DNA from: Chloroflexota bacterium
Lineage (GTDB): Bacteria; Chloroflexota; Anaerolineae; Anaerolineales; UBA11858
DNA length: 43,810 nucleotides
Assembly (NCBI GenBank): GCA_018263575.1
Contig: JAANWX010000108.1
Span: 9,872-53,681, forward strand
Direction of reading: 5' to 3'
Shown: positions 14,604-43,263 of the stretch, piece by piece
How positions within the stretch are numbered: position 1 is the first letter of the stretch
How the letters are laid out: each line of letters begins with the position of its first letter
Translations under genes and position numbers: made by a program
The notes under the pieces: model-generated
What the model was told of the DNA's origin: nothing
What the model saw: only the letters and a program-made list of their open reading frames with translations
Databases searched by the model: none

Positions 14604-15542
14604 TCATCCGCGCATTTGATCCAGCAATTGTTGGTATTGCTCCAAATTTGGGGGACGGAAATCAATGATCTTCGAGATAGCTTCAATGGCCAGTGTTTTT
14701 TGCCCACTATCTAGTAATAATTCTCCTAAAGTGTCTAGTTCAGCAATAGCTTCTTCGATCCGCCCTTGGTTTTCATAGGCCATCGCCAAATGTCTTCGAA
14801 GAGCGGGCTTGCGGGGCATTTCCTCTCGTAATTGCTCCAATACATCGATTACCTTAGCGTGTTCGGATTTGTTCTCCCAATATGCAACACAGCGTTGGAG
14901 TTCATCTTCTGCCTGGCCATCTTTCCCTAAGCGATACCTTAAACTGATAATGTTCAGGCAGGCTTTCTCATCACCGGGAAGAATGGTGTAAATTTGTTCG
15001 AATATCTCAAGCGCTGACTCCCATTCCAGCCGCTGGATATCAATATCGGCTAGACGATGCAAAATTCGTGCTTGCCAATCTGCTTCTTTGTGATATTTTT
15101 CCACCAGCCTCGAGGCTTTTGCGTAAGATTCCCGCGCGTTATCTAGCTCTGCTAAGCTGTAAAACACTTCGGCCAAGCTGATATGCTCTTCAATAGCTTT
15201 ATCAATATGTCCATACTCGACAAGCAAGTTGATCAAGCGCTGGCGAACATCAATATCCATTGGCGATAATTCAACTACCTTATTAAGCATGGAGATTGCT
15301 CGCTCAGTCTTCCCTTGAACCCCATACGTGTCCGCGACCATCAAATATTTCTTAATAGCATTTGGCACTTGGTCTTTTTTCAACAATAAATCGCCTATTG
15401 AGATATGCAAGGGCAAATATTGTGGAGCAAGTTCTAGAGCATAGAAGGCTTTTTCCATAGCCGCTCCAAAAAGCCCCTTTCGAGCTAAGCGTTGGATATT
15501 TGTGAGAGCATCCATAACCTGATTACTATGTGTTTCCAACAA
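14604..15542 (-). CDS. TPR protein, C-terminal part of a frameshifted gene
   Basis: 312 residues of helical tetratricopeptide repeats (for example LFGAAMEKAFYALELAPQY and ALEIFEQIYTILPGDEKA). It overlaps the 3' end of the upstream 478-residue TPR frame by 58 nt in a different frame. Adding one C to the C4 tract (G4 on the + strand, 15554-15557) would join them as ...EEFIPLAEALLETHSNQ..., giving one protein of about 772 residues. In the upstream frame the residues past this tract are Trp/Cys/His-rich and do not look like TPR sequence. It is therefore probably not an independent gene, and the TTG start has no clear ribosome site. The disruption may be real or a homopolymer error. Confidence 0.7.
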   Translation of the reverse strand: MLETHSNQVMDALTNIQRLARKGLFGAAMEKAFYALELAPQYLPLHISIGDLLLKKDQVPNAIKKYLMVADTYGVQGKTERAISMLNKVVELSPMDIDVRQRLINLLVEYGHIDKAIEEHISLAEVFYSLAELDNARESYAKASRLVEKYHKEADWQARILHRLADIDIQRLEWESALEIFEQIYTILPGDEKACLNIISLRYRLGKDGQAEDELQRCVAYWENKSEHAKVIDVLEQLREEMPRKPALRRHLAMAYENQGRIEEAIAELDTLGELLLDSGQKTLAIEAISKIIDFRPPNLEQYQQLLDQMRG

Positions 15543-16921
15543 AGCTTCTGCCAGGGGATAAATTCTTCCTCTGATCTATTTTGGCTGAATTGCTCTCTCA
15601 TATCTTCTAAGTGTTCTTTCCAGTTAGGACGCAGTAAGATATTGTCAACATTTCCACATAGTTGCTCCTGCTTCTCTTGATCTTCTTCTTTTTCTTGAGC
15701 GTCTATTAGCGGATCGTAGAACTGATGTAAATCAATCTCCTGGCTTTCTCCTAAAAGGCTGGCATCCGCTAGCTTTAAAGCCTCAAGATACTCTATACTG
15801 GCTTCCGACCAACGCTCTCCTGTAGTAAGCGCCTTACCCATAAGCAATCGAGCTCCTAAAGCAAAGTCAGCATGAGAGACAGACTTCCGTAAGCTCTTCA
15901 AGGCCATTCCGGTTTGGTCTAGTTCCAGGTATAAATATCCCAAGTTATAATGAGCAGCCGGGTGATCTAACCCTGTGTTAATAGCCTCTTTGAGCTCTGC
16001 GGCAGCTTGTTGAAAATTTCTTTGCGTCTGGTTTTGGATGGCTTGGCTTACGTGCATGAGCAAGCGCGTGTGAGAGCCTTTCTTGGCATTCACCCCCCCA
16101 CTTCCCTTTAAAATTGATGCCAAATTCCTATCTTCCCGGTTTGGTGTATCATCTTCGGTATCTTCGAAAATAACCTGAGCTAAAAGAGAAAGGGCGAGTT
16201 GCCGAGTCTCTTCGACTGGAGAAAGACCTGTCTCTTGCCCTTCCTGCCCAGAAGTTGCTACGAGTTGCGGTTTTTGGTCTTCTTCGAAGGGGCCTGTGCC
16301 TCCATGCGGCCGGGCCGGCTTGGGAAGCATCATGCCACGTTGTACTAAACTCACAGCCCGCTTGACCTTCTTATTCTCGGGCGCAATTCTCATGGCGCGT
16401 TCAATAGCCTGCTGCCCTTGCTGCTTTTTTCCTGCATGCTGCAATAAGCTGGCCACAATGAGATATTCACTAGCCGCTTTTGAGCTTTGACCTATTTGTT
16501 CATACACAACAGCTAGGCGAGCATGCGCCCGCAAATGTTCAGGGTGTGCGCCTACCGCCAGAGTCCAATTTTCAATGGCCTTTTTGACATCTTTGCGCTT
16601 TAAATGTAATTCAGCCGCCTGAGCTGCTGAAGAAGCCGCCTTTTGGTCATCGCCAAGGCGTTCATGTAAAATGGCTTTCTTTTCGAAAGATACCGGGTCC
16701 TCTGGAGATAATTCCGCAGCCCGCGCGTAATGCTCGAGGGCCTCTGCATACTCCCGCATCTCAAATAAGGCCAGGCCCAAGCTGGTTAACGCTTTCACAT
16801 CATTAGGGCGCTCATCCAAAGCTTGTTGATAATAAGCCGTCGCCCGACTCCAATCCTGGTCCCAGGCAGCAGAATGTCCTTGCTCAAGTGCTTCTTGATA
16901 ACGTTTTTCTTGTCCAGTCAT
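15485..16921 (-). CDS. TPR protein, N-terminal part of a frameshifted gene
   Basis: 478 residues as read, with TPR motifs throughout. The first blocks (about 5-110) are canonical, e.g. YAEALEHYARAAELSPEDP. A low-complexity linker lies near 215-290, and further repeats occur at about 305-410. It is a cytoplasmic scaffold-type protein with no enzyme domain; partners are unknown. It starts 15 nt after polA and is the last gene of the receiver/LC7-polA-TPR operon. The last ~23 residues appear to be out of frame after a missing C at 15554-15557, and the true C-terminus is probably encoded by the 14604-15542 frame. Confidence 0.75.
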   Translation of the reverse strand: MTGQEKRYQEALEQGHSAAWDQDWSRATAYYQQALDERPNDVKALTSLGLALFEMREYAEALEHYARAAELSPEDPVSFEKKAILHERLGDDQKAASSAAQAAELHLKRKDVKKAIENWTLAVGAHPEHLRAHARLAVVYEQIGQSSKAASEYLIVASLLQHAGKKQQGQQAIERAMRIAPENKKVKRAVSLVQRGMMLPKPARPHGGTGPFEEDQKPQLVATSGQEGQETGLSPVEETRQLALSLLAQVIFEDTEDDTPNREDRNLASILKGSGGVNAKKGSHTRLLMHVSQAIQNQTQRNFQQAAAELKEAINTGLDHPAAHYNLGYLYLELDQTGMALKSLRKSVSHADFALGARLLMGKALTTGERWSEASIEYLEALKLADASLLGESQEIDLHQFYDPLIDAQEKEEDQEKQEQLCGNVDNILLRPNWKEHLEDMREQFSQNRSEEEFIPWQKLCWKHIVIRLWMLSQISNA

Positions 16922-16936
16922 AAACGCTAACTCTCT

Positions 16937-19750
16937 TTATACACAGGATTCCAAAGATCCCCAATTCGAGCCACAGCGGGCATCTGTCACAAGGGGAACG
17001 TCTAATTGATAGGCCGATTCCATCGTAGAGCGTACCAAGCGAACGGTCTCACCCACTTCCTCTGAGGGAGATTCTAACACTAATTCATCGTGAACCTGGA
17101 GCAAAATTCTCGCCGAAAGAGTGCTTGCTGATAAGGCCTTGCCAACATGCAGCATGGCCAACTTCATTATATCCGCCGCCGTTCCCTGAACGGGAGCATT
17201 AATTGCCTCTCGCTCCTCTCGCCGGCGAACGTTATAATTCGAGGAGGTCTGCAAGCGCGGGAAATATCGCCGCCGCCCTAGCATAGTTTCCACATAACCT
17301 TCTTCTTTTGCCTGTTCCCGCATGGAGTCCAGAAATCGTTTGACGCCGGGGAAACGCTCAAAATAGGCTTGCACAAAATCTTCCGCCTCTGCTAAGGTCA
17401 ACTCTGTCGTCTGGGTCAAGCCATAGGGACTCATCCCATAAACCAACCCAAAATTGATTGCTTTGGCATGGCGGCGTTGATCTTTGCTCACCTCTTCTAA
17501 GGGAACGTTAAAAATAGCTGAAGCTGTAGCAGCGTGAATATCCTGTCCAGCCTTGAAAGCGTGCAGCATGGCCTCATCTTGGGCCATGTGGGCCACCACC
17601 CGCAACTCAATTTGTGAATAGTCGATGGCAATCAACGTCCATCCCGGAGAAGCCACAAAAGCTTTCCGTACCTGCCGCCCCATTTCCGTGCGAATGGGAA
17701 TATTTTGTAAATTAGGGTCAGAGGAAGCGATGCGCCCCGTCACCGTCCCCGCCTGGTTATAGGAGGTGTGTACGCGCTTGGTGCTGGGGTGAACTTGTTC
17801 CAGAAGCGCGTCCACATAGGTCGATTTTAATTTCGCCAATTCACGATATTCCAAAACCCAGGCCGGAACCGGATGCTGGCCCAGCATCCCTTCTAACACG
17901 CTGGCCGCGGTGGAATAATAACCGCTCTTTGTCTTTTTGGTTCTATCCGGCGGCTTGAGGCCCAAGGTAGAGAACAGCGCCTCAGAAAGCTGTTGCGGGG
18001 AGTTCAAATTAAAATCTTCCCCAACAGCGTTCACAACCTGGCGCTCTTTTTCGGCCAACCTTAGTTCCAGGCGAGAGGACATTTCCCGCAAGAAATCCTG
18101 GTCTAATCCAATCCCATTCATCTCCATTTTTGCTAGAATAGGAATAATGGGCATTTCAATTTCATCAAAGAGCTGCCGAGAGCTTACCCTCTCCAATTCT
18201 TTCTCCAAGATGGGTTTGAGACGAAAAACGACCACCGCATCATCGGCCGCGTAAGCTGCTGCATCCTTAATAGGCACCTCGGCCATGGTGATTTGGCTTT
18301 TCCCTTTCCCTATCAAATCCTCTATCTTCGTCATCTGGTGATTTAAACGCACCCAGGCCAATTTCTTTAAGCCCAAATTTCGAGAATCAGGATTCACCAC
18401 CCACTCCGCCAGCATAGTATCGAAACCCAGGGGGGAAACCTCAAGTCCCTGGCGTGCTAAAACCACGTAATCGTATTTAATATTATGGCCAATTTTGGGA
18501 ATATTGGGGTCGGTTAACGGGGGCCGCAAAGCCTCCAGGACATCCCCCATGGGGAGTTGCTCACCCAAGCCCGGCTTATGCCCCACGGGAATATAATAGC
18601 CTTGATCTTCCTCGACAGCCAAAGAGATGCCCACGAAATCAGCCATCATCTGGTCAGTGGAGGTCGTTTCCGTGTCAACGGCAATCACCTCCGCGGACCG
18701 CAAGCGCTTGGCCAGAGCCGCTAAACCAGCCGCCGTATCGATAATCTTCACCCGAAGGCCGTCTTCCTCTCGCAGGTCATCCCCTGCCGCAGCTTCCTGG
18801 GCTGGGGCGGCTTTCTCGTCCCCAAAAAGGAAGAGCTGCTCCCCCCTAACACGCTTGCCGTAGACCCCCTCGAGCGTATCCAGGCGCTTTAACAGAGAGT
18901 GAAACTCAAGCTCGCGGAACAAATCTCGCACCTTTTGGGGGTCAAACTTATCGGGCTGGGCGCGTTCCAAATCAATGGCTACCGACAAATCGGTCACAAT
19001 TTTGGCCAATTTCTGGCTCAAATAAGCGTCTTCTCGGCCTTCTTTCAACTTATTCCTAAAACGAGACTTGACTTCTTCTATGTGCTCATAAACCTTATCC
19101 AGCGTTCCATACTTCTCCAGAAGCGAGGTGGCCGTTTTCTCCCCCACACCATAAACGCCAGGAATATTGTCAGAGCGGTCGCCCATCATGGCCTTTAAAT
19201 CAACCACTTGTTCTGGCCAAACCCCCATCTTCTTCTTCACGTCCTCTCGAAAATAATCCCTGGCATCCGATATGGAGCGTTGGGGTAAATTGACACTCGT
19301 GCGCTCATCGACCAATTGCAGCAAATCCTTATCTCCGGTAATGATTTTCACCATCAAGCCCTGCTCGCCCGCCCACGTTGACAAACTCCCCAAAACATCA
19401 TCCGCTTCATACCCCTCCATCTCTACCCGAGGGATATTGAAAGTATCCACTAATTCCCGCATGCGTTCAATCTGGGGACGGAGGTCTTCGGGCATTTTTT
19501 CACGCGTGGCCTTATACTCCGGATAAATCTCATCCCGAAAGGTTTTTCCGGTATCAAATACCACTGCCAAAAAATCCGGACGTTCCTTCTCTAAAATGCG
19601 CAACAAAGCACTTGTGAAGCCGTATACGCCAGCCGTTGGTTCCCCGGCACTGGTCAACCACCGTCCGGTAGCCGTCCCCCCGCTGGTCAGGGCATAATAG
19701 GAACGATAGGCCAAAGCGTGTCCATCAATGAGATATAAAGTTGAAGGCAT
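16937..19750 (-). CDS. polA: DNA polymerase I
   Basis: A 937-residue Pol I with all three domains. The N-terminal 5'-3' exonuclease (about 1-300) has YLIDGHALAYRSYYAL and GYEADDVLGSL. The 3'-5' proofreading domain (about 330-530) keeps its catalytic residues: VDTET (Exo I), HNIKYD (Exo II) and YAADDA (Exo III). The polymerase domain has motif A DYSQIELRV, motif B KAINFGLVYGMSPYG and motif C QVHDELVLE. It acts in Okazaki fragment maturation and repair. The Phe in motif B predicts normal discrimination against dideoxynucleotides. A ribosome site (AAAGGA) lies upstream, overlapping the end of the previous gene, whose stop is 4 nt before this start. The two are clearly co-transcribed. Confidence 0.97.
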   Translation of the reverse strand: MPSTLYLIDGHALAYRSYYALTSGGTATGRWLTSAGEPTAGVYGFTSALLRILEKERPDFLAVVFDTGKTFRDEIYPEYKATREKMPEDLRPQIERMRELVDTFNIPRVEMEGYEADDVLGSLSTWAGEQGLMVKIITGDKDLLQLVDERTSVNLPQRSISDARDYFREDVKKKMGVWPEQVVDLKAMMGDRSDNIPGVYGVGEKTATSLLEKYGTLDKVYEHIEEVKSRFRNKLKEGREDAYLSQKLAKIVTDLSVAIDLERAQPDKFDPQKVRDLFRELEFHSLLKRLDTLEGVYGKRVRGEQLFLFGDEKAAPAQEAAAGDDLREEDGLRVKIIDTAAGLAALAKRLRSAEVIAVDTETTSTDQMMADFVGISLAVEEDQGYYIPVGHKPGLGEQLPMGDVLEALRPPLTDPNIPKIGHNIKYDYVVLARQGLEVSPLGFDTMLAEWVVNPDSRNLGLKKLAWVRLNHQMTKIEDLIGKGKSQITMAEVPIKDAAAYAADDAVVVFRLKPILEKELERVSSRQLFDEIEMPIIPILAKMEMNGIGLDQDFLREMSSRLELRLAEKERQVVNAVGEDFNLNSPQQLSEALFSTLGLKPPDRTKKTKSGYYSTAASVLEGMLGQHPVPAWVLEYRELAKLKSTYVDALLEQVHPSTKRVHTSYNQAGTVTGRIASSDPNLQNIPIRTEMGRQVRKAFVASPGWTLIAIDYSQIELRVVAHMAQDEAMLHAFKAGQDIHAATASAIFNVPLEEVSKDQRRHAKAINFGLVYGMSPYGLTQTTELTLAEAEDFVQAYFERFPGVKRFLDSMREQAKEEGYVETMLGRRRYFPRLQTSSNYNVRRREEREAINAPVQGTAADIMKLAMLHVGKALSASTLSARILLQVHDELVLESPSEEVGETVRLVRSTMESAYQLDVPLVTDARCGSNWGSLESCV

Positions 19751-19754
19751 AGGG

Positions 19755-21311
19755 TTAAATATCCTTTACGCTCCCCTGAAATTGACGTGTTTTATCAATG
19801 AACCCCCGTATGAGGGACATCGGCAGAGGTTTTCGCCCATTGACCATCAAATATCCAGGCGCCCAAAATGCCCCTGAAGGGTTTTCACGTGCCAATCGCG
19901 GAAAATCTTTAAATATTCGCTCCGAGGTATGTTGGCGTAACTGGCTCATCATACGCTCAGGAGCCATCTTGGGACGAACAGCCATAATCCACTGTAAATA
20001 ATTCGGGCGCACCGCCAAATGCTCTAACCGCCACCCAAAAGCTAAACTCAACTCTTTCAGCCACGCGTCAAGCTCCCGGGCCAAATCTCCCACCAGGCGA
20101 TGGCGGGGGAGACGTGGGATGAGCACGCAAACATAAGTCAGGTTTTGCAAGGCAGGGATGGGGGATTCGAGTTCAGAGAGTGCTAGGTCAAGCTCATCAC
20201 GAGCGGGGGGAGATTCCACGTCCGGCTCGGGGGGATGTGTCACCGTCCCGGCCCGCGCGCGGGGCTGCTCCGGGAGGGTGGTGGCCGTCTGTGGTGGGGG
20301 GGGCATCTCCTCTGCCGGGACAGAATCCACCACTTCTATTTCCGGCTCTTGCTGGGGTTCCGCCTTCGTCTGCGGGGACGGGGATTCTTGCGGAGCGAGT
20401 TCTATCTCTCCCGTGGCATCTGAGGGCGGCATATTCAACTCGGCCAAAAGGGCAGCAAAGGCCTCCGAACTAGTGCCTTCATCTGGGTCACCCAAGGGGA
20501 GATTCAGGGGCTGGGAGTCGGCGTTTCCCGCGTTAGGTTTTTCCGCTGGGATATTTGCCAAACTCCTGGCCAACTCCCCCGCTTGAGTTCGAATCTTGCT
20601 AAAGGGCACTTCTGTTTCGAAAGCTAAGGCCAAAACAAACTGAGCGCCCAAACTGGTAGCGTAGATAATATATTCGGCGTTGGTTTCTTCTAAGCCAATA
20701 AATCGTGATAAATCGCTCTCTCCATCGTGTCCCCAATAATGAGCAATTTTTTGAACGAGTTCATCGGCCGCGGGCTGTGATAATTGCCCGGCATAGGCCC
20801 ACATCTTTTTACCCCGAATGATAAGGGCGGCCTGGGCGGCCGTCTCGAGTGACAGGCGGGTCAGGTGCTGGGCCGTGCGGTCCACATCCTGGAGCCAAAC
20901 GGGAACTTCCTCCGTCCGGCGGGCGGTCGGGCCATCCCCTTCCTTCCCTTTGGCGACACCTGATGGCGACAAGATCTCTCCCACCGCCTCCAAAAAATCG
21001 GGAAGGTAAAAAGGTTTCCCCAGACAAGCATCAGGTTTCAGTTCAGGGAAGTCGGATGGTGAAAATGGTTCAGGAGAAATGAGGATGATTTTTATATCGG
21101 TCCGCTCTGCCCGCAGCCCTTTGACCACCTCTGAGAGAGGAATATCAACCTCGTCATCCACCACAGCCAGCGCATACTCCTTTTGCAGAACTTCTTTAAA
21201 AGCCTGCTTAGCGTCCGGAGCTATTGTTGGCTGAAAACGCTCATCCTCCTCGAGCACTTGCCGGATAAGCTCACCAAACGAGGTTGTGGGGGTGATCACC
21301 AGGATATTCAT
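19755..21311 (-). CDS. Degenerate receiver - roadblock/LC7 - inactive Y1 transposase fusion protein
   Basis: A 518-residue protein with three modules. Residues 1-115 have a receiver fold: Asp52/Asp53 at the beta3 end and Lys99 in LGKPF are present, but the beta1 acidic pair is replaced (ILVITPT). Residues about 136-255 resemble roadblock/LC7 (AAQAALIIRGKKMWAYAGQL), a fold that regulates small GTPases. A Pro/Glu-rich linker (256-385) leads to residues 391-513. These I align by eye to IS200/IS605 TnpA: YVCVLIPRLPRHRLVGDL fits the YHIVWCPKYRR.VLVG strand, and SERIFKDFPRL and FWAPGYLMV also fit. The HUH motif is replaced by NYLQW (437-441) and the catalytic Tyr by Phe504, so strand cleavage is not expected. 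It may be a domesticated nucleic-acid-binding domain. It is first in an operon with polA, and its promoter predicts a leaderless mRNA. Confidence 0.75.
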   Translation of the reverse strand: MNILVITPTTSFGELIRQVLEEDERFQPTIAPDAKQAFKEVLQKEYALAVVDDEVDIPLSEVVKGLRAERTDIKIILISPEPFSPSDFPELKPDACLGKPFYLPDFLEAVGEILSPSGVAKGKEGDGPTARRTEEVPVWLQDVDRTAQHLTRLSLETAAQAALIIRGKKMWAYAGQLSQPAADELVQKIAHYWGHDGESDLSRFIGLEETNAEYIIYATSLGAQFVLALAFETEVPFSKIRTQAGELARSLANIPAEKPNAGNADSQPLNLPLGDPDEGTSSEAFAALLAELNMPPSDATGEIELAPQESPSPQTKAEPQQEPEIEVVDSVPAEEMPPPPQTATTLPEQPRARAGTVTHPPEPDVESPPARDELDLALSELESPIPALQNLTYVCVLIPRLPRHRLVGDLARELDAWLKELSLAFGWRLEHLAVRPNYLQWIMAVRPKMAPERMMSQLRQHTSERIFKDFPRLARENPSGAFWAPGYLMVNGRKPLPMSLIRGFIDKTRQFQGSVKDI

Positions 21312-21488: not shown

Positions 21489-22313
21489 ATGAAAAACCTA
21501 CTACTCATACTCACTGGTGTTGGAATCGCCGTTGTCGCCCTGGCCGGAGTGGGCTTTGCGTTTGCGCAAGGTGATACTCCTCCCGAATTCCCTCCCATAA
21601 ACCCTGAAGGCTTTGGTGAATGGGGACGAGGACGCGGCCTGGGGATGCGCGGAAACATAGAAGATAGCCCCCTCCACGATGTGATGAGCGCAGCCATCGC
21701 TGATGCTTTTGGCCTCACCGTTGAAGAGCTGGACGCCATGCACGAGAATGGCGAAACGCTCTGGACGTGGGCCGAAGCTCAGGGCCTCACAGTGGAAGAG
21801 TTCCAGGTCAAAATGCTCGAAGCCCGTCAAAACGCCCTCCAACAGGCCGTTGATGATGGCACAATCACCCAGGAACAAGCCGACCAGATGGCCAGCCGCC
21901 AAGGCGGCCCCGGCGTTGGACGGCCAGGACGTGAACCGGGAATGTTCGGCGGGGAAGCCAGCCCTCTGCATGACGCGATGAGCGCCGCTATCGCCGATGC
22001 CTTCGGGTTGACCGTGGAAGAGTTGGACGCCATGCACGAGAACGGCGAAACGCTCTGGACATGGGCCGAAAGCCAAGGCCTCACAGTGGAAGAGTTCCAG
22101 GTCAAAATGCTCGAAGCCCGTCAAAACGCCCTCCAACAGGCCGTTGATGATGGCACAATCACCCAAGAACAAGCTGACCAAATGCTCGAGCACCAGGGTG
22201 GCCCCGGTTTTGGCGGACAAACCCCCGGCGCAGGCCCTTGCCAAGAGGGAGATTTCTCTCCTCAAGGTATGCCCCACGGTGGACGCGGTGGAGGCGGGCG
22301 AGGTAAATGGTAA
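21489..22313 (+). CDS. Secreted protein with two DUF2680-like repeats
   Basis: A 274-residue protein with signal peptide (about 1-27, ending near FAFAQG) and two ~78-residue repeats at about 58-136 and 156-235. Each reads PLHD.MSAAIADAFGLTVEELDAM and ends TITQEQADQM, like the YckD/DUF2680 family of Firmicutes and Chloroflexota secreted proteins. The tail is Gly/Arg-rich. A good ribosome site (AAAGGAG) lies 8 nt before the ATG. The role is unknown. Position directly before a two-component system, and a tandem operator upstream, suggest it is the target or periplasm-like modulator of that system, comparable with CpxP-type arrangements; this is inference. The second halves of the repeats are identical in DNA over 89 bp. 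Confidence 0.85.
   Translation: MKNLLLILTGVGIAVVALAGVGFAFAQGDTPPEFPPINPEGFGEWGRGRGLGMRGNIEDSPLHDVMSAAIADAFGLTVEELDAMHENGETLWTWAEAQGLTVEEFQVKMLEARQNALQQAVDDGTITQEQADQMASRQGGPGVGRPGREPGMFGGEASPLHDAMSAAIADAFGLTVEELDAMHENGETLWTWAESQGLTVEEFQVKMLEARQNALQQAVDDGTITQEQADQMLEHQGGPGFGGQTPGAGPCQEGDFSPQGMPHGGRGGGGRGKW
21783..21871 (+). repeat. 89-bp identical direct repeat, unit 1
   Basis: Identical base for base to 22077-22165 inside the duplicated secreted protein gene. The flanking parts of the same repeat differ at many silent sites, so this tract was probably homogenised by recent gene conversion. Confidence 0.85.
22077..22165 (+). repeat. 89-bp identical direct repeat, unit 2
   Basis: Second copy of the tract at 21783-21871. 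Unequal recombination between the copies would delete or add one 78-residue domain. Confidence 0.85.
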
Positions 22314-22404
22314 ACTAACCTTGTCATAGCGCATTATCTAAGTACTTGATGCAGCGCTACGTTGAGAAAGTGGGCAGTGTGATACACGCTGTCCACTTTT
22401 TTCG

Positions 22405-22474
22405 GTATAATGCCACTTGCCACTTGCCACTTGCCACTTGCCTCTTGCCCCTCGCTCCCCATCCCACACCACCT
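22405..22474 (+). repeat. 7-bp CACTTGC tandem repeat leader of the response regulator
   Basis: About five CACTTGC-type units (22410-22450) grade into a C-rich, G-poor stretch that runs into the ATG at 22475. No Shine-Dalgarno is present. The reverse-complement unit (GGCAAGT) recurs at 12075-12098 and 26688-26728. Confidence 0.75.
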
Positions 22475-23161
22475 ATGTCCACCATTCTTATCATCGAAGA
22501 CGAACCAGAACTAGTCAGAGTCCTCCGCTCCTACCTGGAAAAGGAGAATTTCGAGGTGTTGAAGGCCTACCGGGGAGATACCGGCCTCAAGCTTTGGGAG
22601 CAAGAAAAGCCTGACCTTGTCCTCCTCGACCTGAACCTGCCGGGGATGAACGGCCTCGACGTGGCCCGTAAAATTCGCCGTAAGTCCCAAACCCCCATCA
22701 TCATGGTCACCGCTCGCGTCGAGGAAATGGATCAATTGATCGGCCTGGAGTTGGGCGCGGATGATTACATCACGAAACCCTTTTCACCTCGCGTGGTTGT
22801 CGCCAAAGTACGCGCCGTGCTGCGCCGGACGACATCTTCCCCGGAAGAACTCCGCACGATGGCCATAGGCAACCTAAAAATCAATATTGACGCCCATACT
22901 GTCACCCGAGAGGGGGAGGGGGTGGATTTGACGCCCACGGAGTTCACCCTCCTCCACACCCTGGCCGAGCAACCCGGAAGAGCCTTTTCCCGGCTGCAAT
23001 TACTAGAAGCCACCCAAGGCGCCGCTTACGAGGGATACGAGCGCACCATTGATGCCCACATTAAAAACTTGCGCGCCAAATTAGAAAAAGACCCCAAAAA
23101 CCCGACTTATATCGAAACCGTCTTCGGAGTAGGGTACCGCTTCGCTCACTCGCCATCATAG
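22475..23161 (+). CDS. OmpR-family response regulator
   Basis: A 228-residue regulator. The receiver (1-120) has the acidic pair Glu8/Asp9 (ILIIEDEPE), phospho-acceptor Asp52 in LVLLDLNLPG, the switch Thr in MVTAR and the conserved Lys in YITKPF. The C-terminal winged helix (about 130-225) has DLTPTEFTLLHTLAEQPG and a recognition-helix region ERTIDAHIKNLRAKLE, typical of OmpR/PhoB. It precedes its sensor kinase by 66 bp. The ATG at 22475 begins the receiver; earlier in-frame starts run through repeat sequence. It probably controls the secreted-protein gene upstream through the 11-bp repeats at 21358-21401. Confidence 0.92.
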   Translation: MSTILIIEDEPELVRVLRSYLEKENFEVLKAYRGDTGLKLWEQEKPDLVLLDLNLPGMNGLDVARKIRRKSQTPIIMVTARVEEMDQLIGLELGADDYITKPFSPRVVVAKVRAVLRRTTSSPEELRTMAIGNLKINIDAHTVTREGEGVDLTPTEFTLLHTLAEQPGRAFSRLQLLEATQGAAYEGYERTIDAHIKNLRAKLEKDPKNPTYIETVFGVGYRFAHSPS

Positions 23162-23227: not shown

Positions 23228-24640
23228 ATGCGCCTACGACTCTTCCTCTCCTTTGCACTTGTCATTCTCATCGCTATTTTCAGCGTGGTTTTAGTGATTG
23301 GCAAAAGTATGGCCTCCGAAGTGCGGGACTTCATGTTTCGGGGTGGCGCGCTTGGGTTGGAAGGTACGGTAGATCAACTAGAATCTTGTTACGCAGAATA
23401 CCAAAATTGGGAAAGTTGCTCCGAGTTCCTGGAAACAAGAAATGCACTGGGCGGTTCACCGTGGGGGATGCGGGGGGGGATGGGAACCAATAACGAGCGG
23501 GAGATGCGGGGCCGGGGAATGGACACTGAACAGGGAAGGCCAGCTTTAAGCCTCCAGATTATTGACACAAACGGCAACGTTGTGGCCGATACGCAAAACC
23601 CATCCCCCAATGCCCAAGTTGACGACAGCGTACTTCAGAACGCTTTTCCTCTCCTATACCAAGGCCAGGAGGTGGGATATTTGCTTCCAGAAGGATTTTC
23701 GGCCTTCACCTCTCAACAAGAGGAGACCCTGGTTTCCCAGCTCAATAATGCCGCCCTGATTGCCGCTGGCATATCCGGAGGAACGGCCCTAGTCTTAGCC
23801 ATTCTCTTGGCTTATAGTCTCTTACGCCCCATTCGAAAATTAACCAAAGCGGCCAACCTGGTGGGGGAAGGTGACCTGAGCCAGCGCGTCAGCATCAGCG
23901 GGGATGCGGAACTGGCCACCCTGGGGAACGTTTTCAACCAAATGGCACGCTCTCTTCAACAGGCCGAAGAACGCCGCCAATCTCTCACGGCCGATATAGC
24001 CCATGAGTTGAGAACCCCCTTATCCGTCCAACAGGCGCACCTGGAAGCTCTGCAAGATGGTATTTACGAACTCTCCCCAGAAAATCTACTCCCCATCACC
24101 GAACAAAATCGCTCTCTCACCCGCCTGGTAGAAGACCTTCGCACCCTGGCTCTGGCCGATGCCGGAGAATTGACGCTTGAAAAAACCAAAACCGATTTCC
24201 CCGAACTTGTGCGCCGGATCGTGACCCGATTCAAGCCCCAGGCCCAAACCCGAGGCATCACCCTAGATTTGTCTCTCGCGGACGATGTCCCCATCCTCGA
24301 CCTTGACCCGCAACGAATTGAACAAATTCTCAATAATTTATTGGGCAACGCCTTGCACTACTCGCCTGAAAAAGGAGTCATCAAGATAAGATTGACACCT
24401 AATCCTCAACACGTTATCCTGAAGATCCGTGATAATGGCCCCGGCATTCCCCCGGAGGAACTTCGCCACATTTTCGACCGATTTTATAAAAGCGACAAAT
24501 CCCGCACGCGCTCCAAAGGCGGAACTGGGCTGGGGTTATCCATCTCTCAAAAATTGGCCCAAGCCCACGGCGGAAAGCTGGAAGCAGGCAACCATCCCCA
24601 GGGAGGGGCCGTTTTCACGCTTATTTTGATGTTGGTTTGA
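23228..24640 (+). CDS. Sensor histidine kinase (HAMP type)
   Basis: A 470-residue membrane kinase. A first transmembrane segment (about 5-25) and a second (about 175-198) enclose an extracytoplasmic domain with a Gly/Met/Arg-rich loop (WGMRGGMG... MRGRGM). A HAMP domain (about 199-250), the HisKA motif ADIAHELRTPLS with intact His, and HATPase_c boxes (NNLLGNALHYS; DNGPGIPPEE; GGTGLGLSIS) follow. It is the cognate partner of the preceding regulator. The Met-rich loop could bind a metal such as copper, but this is inference only. The leader is C/A-rich (GTCACCCCATCACCC) without a Shine-Dalgarno. Confidence 0.93.
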   Translation: MRLRLFLSFALVILIAIFSVVLVIGKSMASEVRDFMFRGGALGLEGTVDQLESCYAEYQNWESCSEFLETRNALGGSPWGMRGGMGTNNEREMRGRGMDTEQGRPALSLQIIDTNGNVVADTQNPSPNAQVDDSVLQNAFPLLYQGQEVGYLLPEGFSAFTSQQEETLVSQLNNAALIAAGISGGTALVLAILLAYSLLRPIRKLTKAANLVGEGDLSQRVSISGDAELATLGNVFNQMARSLQQAEERRQSLTADIAHELRTPLSVQQAHLEALQDGIYELSPENLLPITEQNRSLTRLVEDLRTLALADAGELTLEKTKTDFPELVRRIVTRFKPQAQTRGITLDLSLADDVPILDLDPQRIEQILNNLLGNALHYSPEKGVIKIRLTPNPQHVILKIRDNGPGIPPEELRHIFDRFYKSDKSRTRSKGGTGLGLSISQKLAQAHGGKLEAGNHPQGGAVFTLILMLV

Positions 24641-38178: not shown

Positions 38179-38200
38179 GGGCGGGTTTCGAAACCCGCCC
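38179..38200. repeat. Perfect 22-bp palindrome in the gyrA leader
   Basis: Half-site GGGCGGGTTTC with its exact complement, preceded by AATGTAG. It would fold as a tight hairpin in the gyrA leader RNA, about 60 nt before the start codon. The ATGTAGGGCG opening is shared with the core of the element at 33117-33226. Confidence 0.7.
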
Positions 38201-43170: not shown

Positions 43171-43263
43171 GTGTCTTCTCAACACCTTGGGGAGGGGCTG
43201 AGACCGGGTCTTAGACCGGGTCTAAGACCTAGGAGGTCTTGCCCCGTATTTATGAGATGATAC
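43171..43263. repeat. GTATCATCTCAA-type element, copy 3
   Basis: Ends GTGTCTTCTCAA and ATGAGATGATAC match copy 1 at most positions, again with GGGG and CCCC inside. The core is different: AGACCGGGTCTTAGACC-type hairpins (43201-43240) with partial repeats of the unit GACCGGGTCT. Confidence 0.65.

Follow-up and report, generated by a model that had tools for sequence, protein, structure and literature searches.

Receiver, roadblock and Y1 domains in a protein encoded beside polA

The stretch of DNA analysed here (the window, 43,810 bp from a bacterium of the Anaerolineales, Chloroflexota) carries on its minus strand an ORF that starts and ends exactly at 19755–21311, is single-copy in its genome and encodes a 518-residue protein with a receiver-like domain, a roadblock domain and a degenerate Y1 domain resembling IS200 TnpA. 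The AlphaFold2 model (38 sequences) has three folded parts, with pLDDT >90 over most of each, joined by disordered linkers, and the three-part assignment made in a preliminary description of this DNA was borne out for every domain by sequence searches taken together with AlphaFold2 and Foldseek. No account of this architecture was found in the papers searched, all of them open access.

Four base pairs downstream lies polA (16937–19750, minus strand; DNA polymerase I, 937 aa), as established from its ORF and by locus comparison. It is followed by the usual next gene in this order, encoding a TPR protein and here read in two parts: an N-terminal one (15485–16921, minus strand; Pfam TPR) and, in another frame, a C-terminal one (14604–15542, minus strand; tblastn with an intact 778-aa relative). 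The frame changes between 15557 and 15572, giving 478 + 312 aa as against the intact 778 aa in L031, and is either an artefact of sequencing or assembly or a genuine frameshift. A divergent gene at 21489–22313 contains two near-identical copies of a unit of ~75 aa (SPLHD.MSAAIADAFGLTVEELDAMHENGETLWTWAE.QGLTVEEFQ...) and is adjoined by genes for a response regulator (22346–23161) and a histidine kinase (23228–24640); in one relative (L289), regulator and kinase remain beside polA and the fusion gene is gone.

The receiver-like domain (residues 1–117; 20961–21311) adopts a CheY-like (βα)5 fold in the model, with Foldseek matches to CheY-like proteins at TMt up to 0.85; its Pfam match is weak in the window copy (E = 0.03) and clear in distant members of the family (3e-7 and 8e-12). 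The β1 acidic pair had been described as lost, and indeed ITPTT stands in its place, with Asp52 and Lys99 still present, so that the window copy lacks the full set of β1 acidic pair, phospho-accepting Asp and Lys. Of 113 members, 110 have the phospho-Asp and 86 the Lys, but only 18 combine a β1 acid with both; judging by these residues, phosphorylation by the usual chemistry appears unlikely in most members, the window copy included. The middle domain (residues 138–258; 20538–20900) has no Pfam sequence match to the roadblock family PF03259 in the window protein. Folded alone, it is predicted with pLDDT 90 to have a roadblock/LC7-type fold, with the roadblock proteins MglB and MP1/p14 as top PDB matches (TM about 0.6–0.7) and Ragulator also among the Foldseek matches. 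The Pro/Glu-rich linker that follows (residues 259–387; 20151–20537) is disordered (pLDDT mostly <50) apart from one short predicted helix (281–290), and its length between roadblock and Y1 ranges from 14 to 552 aa across 121 members. A strictly conserved docking motif in this linker was considered and rejected, DWxP and a short helix motif each being present in 15 of the 121 only.

The C-terminal domain (residues 388–515; 19767–20150) matches Pfam Y1_Tnp (PF01797) at residues 389–491 with E = 4e-12 and a score twice the gathering threshold, and its nearest PDB sequences are the ISDra2, Sulfolobus and DR_0177 TnpA proteins (E = 4e-6 to 4e-5). A different fold for this region would have spoken against its description as a Y1 domain; Foldseek of the modelled part returned TnpA structures (TMt 0.63–0.80). 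No hidden similarity between the roadblock and Y1 domains was found. In the window protein the Y1 domain is basic (net charge +10, pI 10.9) and the receiver acidic (net −11); across the family the Y1 domain is mildly basic (mean +1.2, sd 3.6; median pI 8.7).

Loss of the catalytic set and descent of the family

When aligned with stand-alone Y1 proteins from the same class (L107 and L108, with DHLHV and DHVHL), the window protein has NYLQW (residues 437–441; 19989–20003) where the active-site motif DHUHL would stand, Y438-L-Q440 thus replacing HUH as first described. Phe504 (19800–19802) occupies the position of the catalytic Tyr, with Thr508 where TnpA has the Gln at +4, and is followed by conserved Arg509 and Gln512. 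The two His positions are Y and Q in 87 of 121 distinct proteins with roadblock and Y1 domains, and both His are present in a single member (L254), which has Phe at the Tyr position; HUH and Tyr therefore occur together in none of the 121, so the window copy is not merely a decayed version of an intact family. The replacement of Tyr by Phe, correct for the window copy, does not hold as a family-wide loss, since the position is Tyr in 66 members, Phe in 53 and Leu in 2. By these counts, loss of the His pair is near-universal and came early, with Tyr and Phe varying afterwards. By comparison, HUH is kept in 17 of 19 stand-alone Y1 proteins taken from relatives.

Traces of the class-1 Y---Q signature, as defined along with the Y---NP motif of RAYTs in a survey of Y1 classes (PMC6006769), persist in divergent members: YIAYQ in L045 and F-I-x-Y-Q in L052 and L054, L052 having THVEV along with FIDYQ. 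These pieces of an ancestral class-1 signature suggest that the domain descends from an IS200-type protein, not from a RAYT-type one.

The same fusion is found in ~120 distinct relatives from the Anaerolineae (121 with roadblock and Y1, 113 with receiver, roadblock and Y1). Matches occur in 28 of 41 related genomes, the best being full-length with 39–52% identity, and a class-wide search found longer versions in other orders, of as many as ~1150 aa, in which an extended segment separates receiver and roadblock. A contig scan with the single protein as query gave no matches, and one with an alignment of the Y1 domain only recovered the relatives: 160 in all, of which 80 were kept, labelled Chloroflexota and mostly Anaerolineae/Anaerolineales, a few of these MAG labels (e.g. 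Chloroflexus, Herpetosiphon sp.) being possibly wrong. In a phylum sample of 400 genomes the roadblock profile matched 34, all in Anaerolineae but for one weak match, and among them were all 24 listed genomes of the family f11.

In a tree of 36 Y1 domains of the family and 21 stand-alone ones, the former make up one clade (branch support 100/99, in a bootstrap not fully settled) separate from the stand-alone Y1 transposases. Median dN/dS, by the Nei–Gojobori method on 23 close pairs, is 0.044 for Y1, 0.049 for roadblock, 0.123 for receiver and highest, at 0.17, for the linker; the dead Y1 domain is hence among the most constrained parts of the protein, on a par with the roadblock. The proposed domestication of a Y1 nuclease into a conserved non-catalytic domain is thus well supported by a single origin, strong purifying selection, loss of HUH throughout and linkage to polA across orders. 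A paralogue of the dead Y1 domain that stands alone (194 aa, acidic with net −7) was also seen in one genome (G030, L058:7615–8199), without roadblock or receiver and away from polA.

Linkage to polA and palindromes at the junction

In loci chosen without regard to polA adjacency, 93 of the 113 distinct proteins with all three domains have a polA on the same strand no more than 400 bp downstream; in the other 20 polA is farther along (8), the contig ends (4) or there is no polA nearby (8). Conservation of the polA linkage and of the HUH and Tyr losses among homologues had been suggested as a check, and the Tyr loss did not hold up. Loci outside the order have other genes upstream (a CARDB/SH3 protein) and other genes following polA, and what they share is the pair of fusion gene and polA. 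Within the order, a TPR gene usually comes after polA, as in 95 of the 122 loci that have room for it. Proteins with receiver and roadblock and no Y1 also sit before polA (7 of 15), so the Y1 domain itself need not concern polA. Seven genomes of the same genus that have polA gave no match to the fusion gene, and polA and the TPR gene are intact in the six that were read: the sister species lost the fusion gene while polA stayed intact. Four family members (L092, L101, L102 and L104) have no polA found beside them, and since L104, on a short contig, is the earliest branch in the family tree, the fusion may predate the linkage.

The fusion gene had been taken to be co-transcribed with polA, and this is likely for the window locus and L031, where a gap of 4–12 bp without a TATAAT ahead of polA suggests an operon. 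The claim does not extend to the family: the gap exceeds 100 bp in 49 of 99 polA-linked loci, and 31 of 82 gaps of at least 30 bp contain a terminator-like hairpin. In relatives without the fusion gene, TATAAT is often upstream of polA.

An abundance of palindromic elements, invoked earlier as possible targets of the Y1 domain, could not be substantiated for the window. The window has three hairpins with a perfect stem of at least 9 bp versus 1.0 ± 0.9 expected, with no clear excess in the window or around the fusion-gene locus, and genome-wide palindromes were consequently rejected as targets. Perfect hairpins at 38179–38200 (GGGCGGGTTTCGAAACCCGCCC) and 43207–43229 (GGTCTTAGACCGGGTCTAAGACC) are distant from the fusion gene. 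The related family f11 has a palindrome, CGCAGAG-TATAAT(N)-CTCTGCG, in the gap before polA (L040, L110, L111, L113, L114, L166–L168, L171, L172, L203, L207, L221 and others), followed by a T-run and with paired changes in its outer arms; it is absent from the window locus, with its 4-bp gap, and from other families. In 12 of 14 genomes the exact form with the TATAAT loop is present a single time, placed by its coordinates at the gene–polA junction, and a repeat family was therefore rejected; its arms, a common hairpin sequence elsewhere, recur with other loops 1–15 times per genome. The palindrome likely covers the polA −10 site and may be an operator or, as the recurrence of its arms suggests, a terminator overlapping the promoter. 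It is the one concrete candidate for a hairpin bound by the Y1 domain.

Possible roles of a non-catalytic Y1 domain

The family shares with the class-1 IS200/IS605 TnpA proteins of ISDra2 and IS608 their fold, their Pfam family and, in divergent members, the Y---Q trace, but differs from them in its family-wide loss of HUH and its fused signalling domains: it is not a mobile stand-alone gene with subterminal hairpins but has one locus per genome, beside polA, and no cutting is expected of it. TnpA-REP/RAYT proteins (REPtrons) likewise have a Y1 domain that the host has kept for a role other than transposition, but their HUH and Tyr are intact, their motif is Y---NP and they are surrounded by REP hairpins, which they cut; none of this applies here. 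The roadblock fold is close to that of MglB, which together with MglC and RomR belongs to the MglA polarity system, and receiver and roadblock are here in one chain; the differences are a roadblock invisible to Pfam, the extra Y1 domain, the polA neighbourhood and no evidence of motility. Similar in layout are proteins near group 3 MglA genes (PMC4316618), with a receiver-like N-terminus, a variable linker, a candidate nucleic-acid-binding C-terminus and a GTPase/roadblock connection, but these end in a winged helix, whereas the fusion has a roadblock inside the chain and a dead Y1 domain at its end. Finally, the survey of TnpA Y1 proteins cited above kept 722 of 924, those with a complete core and both motifs, and suggested the motif-less ones to be non-functional; ours are of this motif-less kind, except that here a large set is conserved and under selection.

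The former transposase domain has lost the residues for cutting and has yet been strongly preserved, and probably now works by binding and no longer by cutting. We tentatively favour, at somewhat less than even confidence, a conserved non-catalytic adaptor whose dead Y1 domains pair to bind a nucleic-acid hairpin and whose receiver and roadblock connect it to signalling. A receiver-roadblock protein would have acquired a class-1 TnpA domain at its C-terminus in a single event; the domain would then have lost its metal-binding His pair and been kept for binding. MglB-type roadblock domains pair, as is also apparent from the entry titles of the PDB matches. In the Y1 enzyme of IS608, the active site is assembled in trans within a dimer (PMC5934647). 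Given both, the parts would most simply be used as a hairpin-binding adaptor that dimerises and does not cut. Hairpin binding by TnpA-REP has been assayed by EMSA without divalent metal (PMC8266576), and the Y132F mutant of ISDra2 TnpA was crystallised with left-end DNA (2xo6, from its entry title), and hence binding can outlive catalysis. We infer that roadblock and Y1 domains would both dimerise, and that the Y1 dimer would hold a folded single-stranded hairpin uncut, be it DNA at sites of replication or repair, or RNA; such nucleic-acid or hairpin binding is a plausible prediction. The degenerate receiver and the roadblock would signal to a partner whether a hairpin is bound; the most plausible such partner is an MglA-type GTPase/roadblock system of these cells. 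The protein would act at a place linked to DNA polymerase I, whose gene adjoins that of the fusion. Matches to the Arf/MglA-type GTPase profile occur in 41 of 41 relatives, and roadblock matches in 40 of 41, but those to PF00025 include long frames of translation-factor size, and GTPase presence alone says little. Counted against the adaptor are the weak family-wide basicity of Y1, the polA linkage of proteins without Y1, the sister genomes without the gene and the lack of a clear hairpin excess.

Rather unlikely, though to be taken seriously, is that the protein is purely a scaffold of Mgl-type (MglA/MglB/RomR-like) signalling, with the dead Y1 domain serving only for dimerisation or docking, the receiver akin to a pseudo-RomR, the roadblock MglB/MglC-like, the TPR protein as effector and the polA linkage an old gene order without functional meaning. 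The closeness of the roadblock to MglB, its combination with a receiver, the frequent TPR gene, the presence of GTPase and roadblock genes in almost every relative, the weak basicity of Y1 and the receiver-like proteins known beside MglA systems would all fit. However, families elsewhere in the class have different flanking genes and keep the gene–polA pair, which suggests that polA matters, and Y1 is as constrained as the roadblock, with its conserved Arg and Gln in the last helix.

Doubtful, in our view, is a local regulator that binds the palindrome at the gene–polA junction and adjusts polA transcription. The position and single-copy TATAAT-loop form of the f11 palindrome favour this, as does a TATAAT still upstream of polA in relatives without the fusion gene, but recurring arms and T-run are mostly explained by an intrinsic terminator overlapping the promoter, and the palindrome is confined to f11. 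We also give little credence to a bolder form of the adaptor, in which the silenced transposase domain would read DNA or RNA hairpins as sensor or output of the receiver-roadblock protein and thereby control DNA polymerase I, in f11 through the single-copy palindrome over the polA −10 site, so linking a Ras-like GTPase to DNA repair. That members retaining Tyr still cleave strands with other metal ligands is very improbable: Tyr is present in 66 of 121 members, but none of these has either His, the +4 Gln is mostly gone (TR or VR instead) and Tyr and Phe exchange across the family. A chance fusion, or a transposase remnant decaying in one genome, would account for the missing catalytic residues and nothing further, and is already refuted by the ~120 distinct relatives that share one architecture, one clade and purifying selection.

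Domesticated Y1 transposases in the literature examined keep cutting, whereas the dead Y1 domain described here is a long-lived and strongly selected part of a signalling protein, in a fusion tied to polA over the whole class. Use of the hairpin-reading half of the IS200 mechanism alone thereby becomes testable, and the family offers a lead to a possible coupling of roadblock/receiver signalling with DNA polymerase I.
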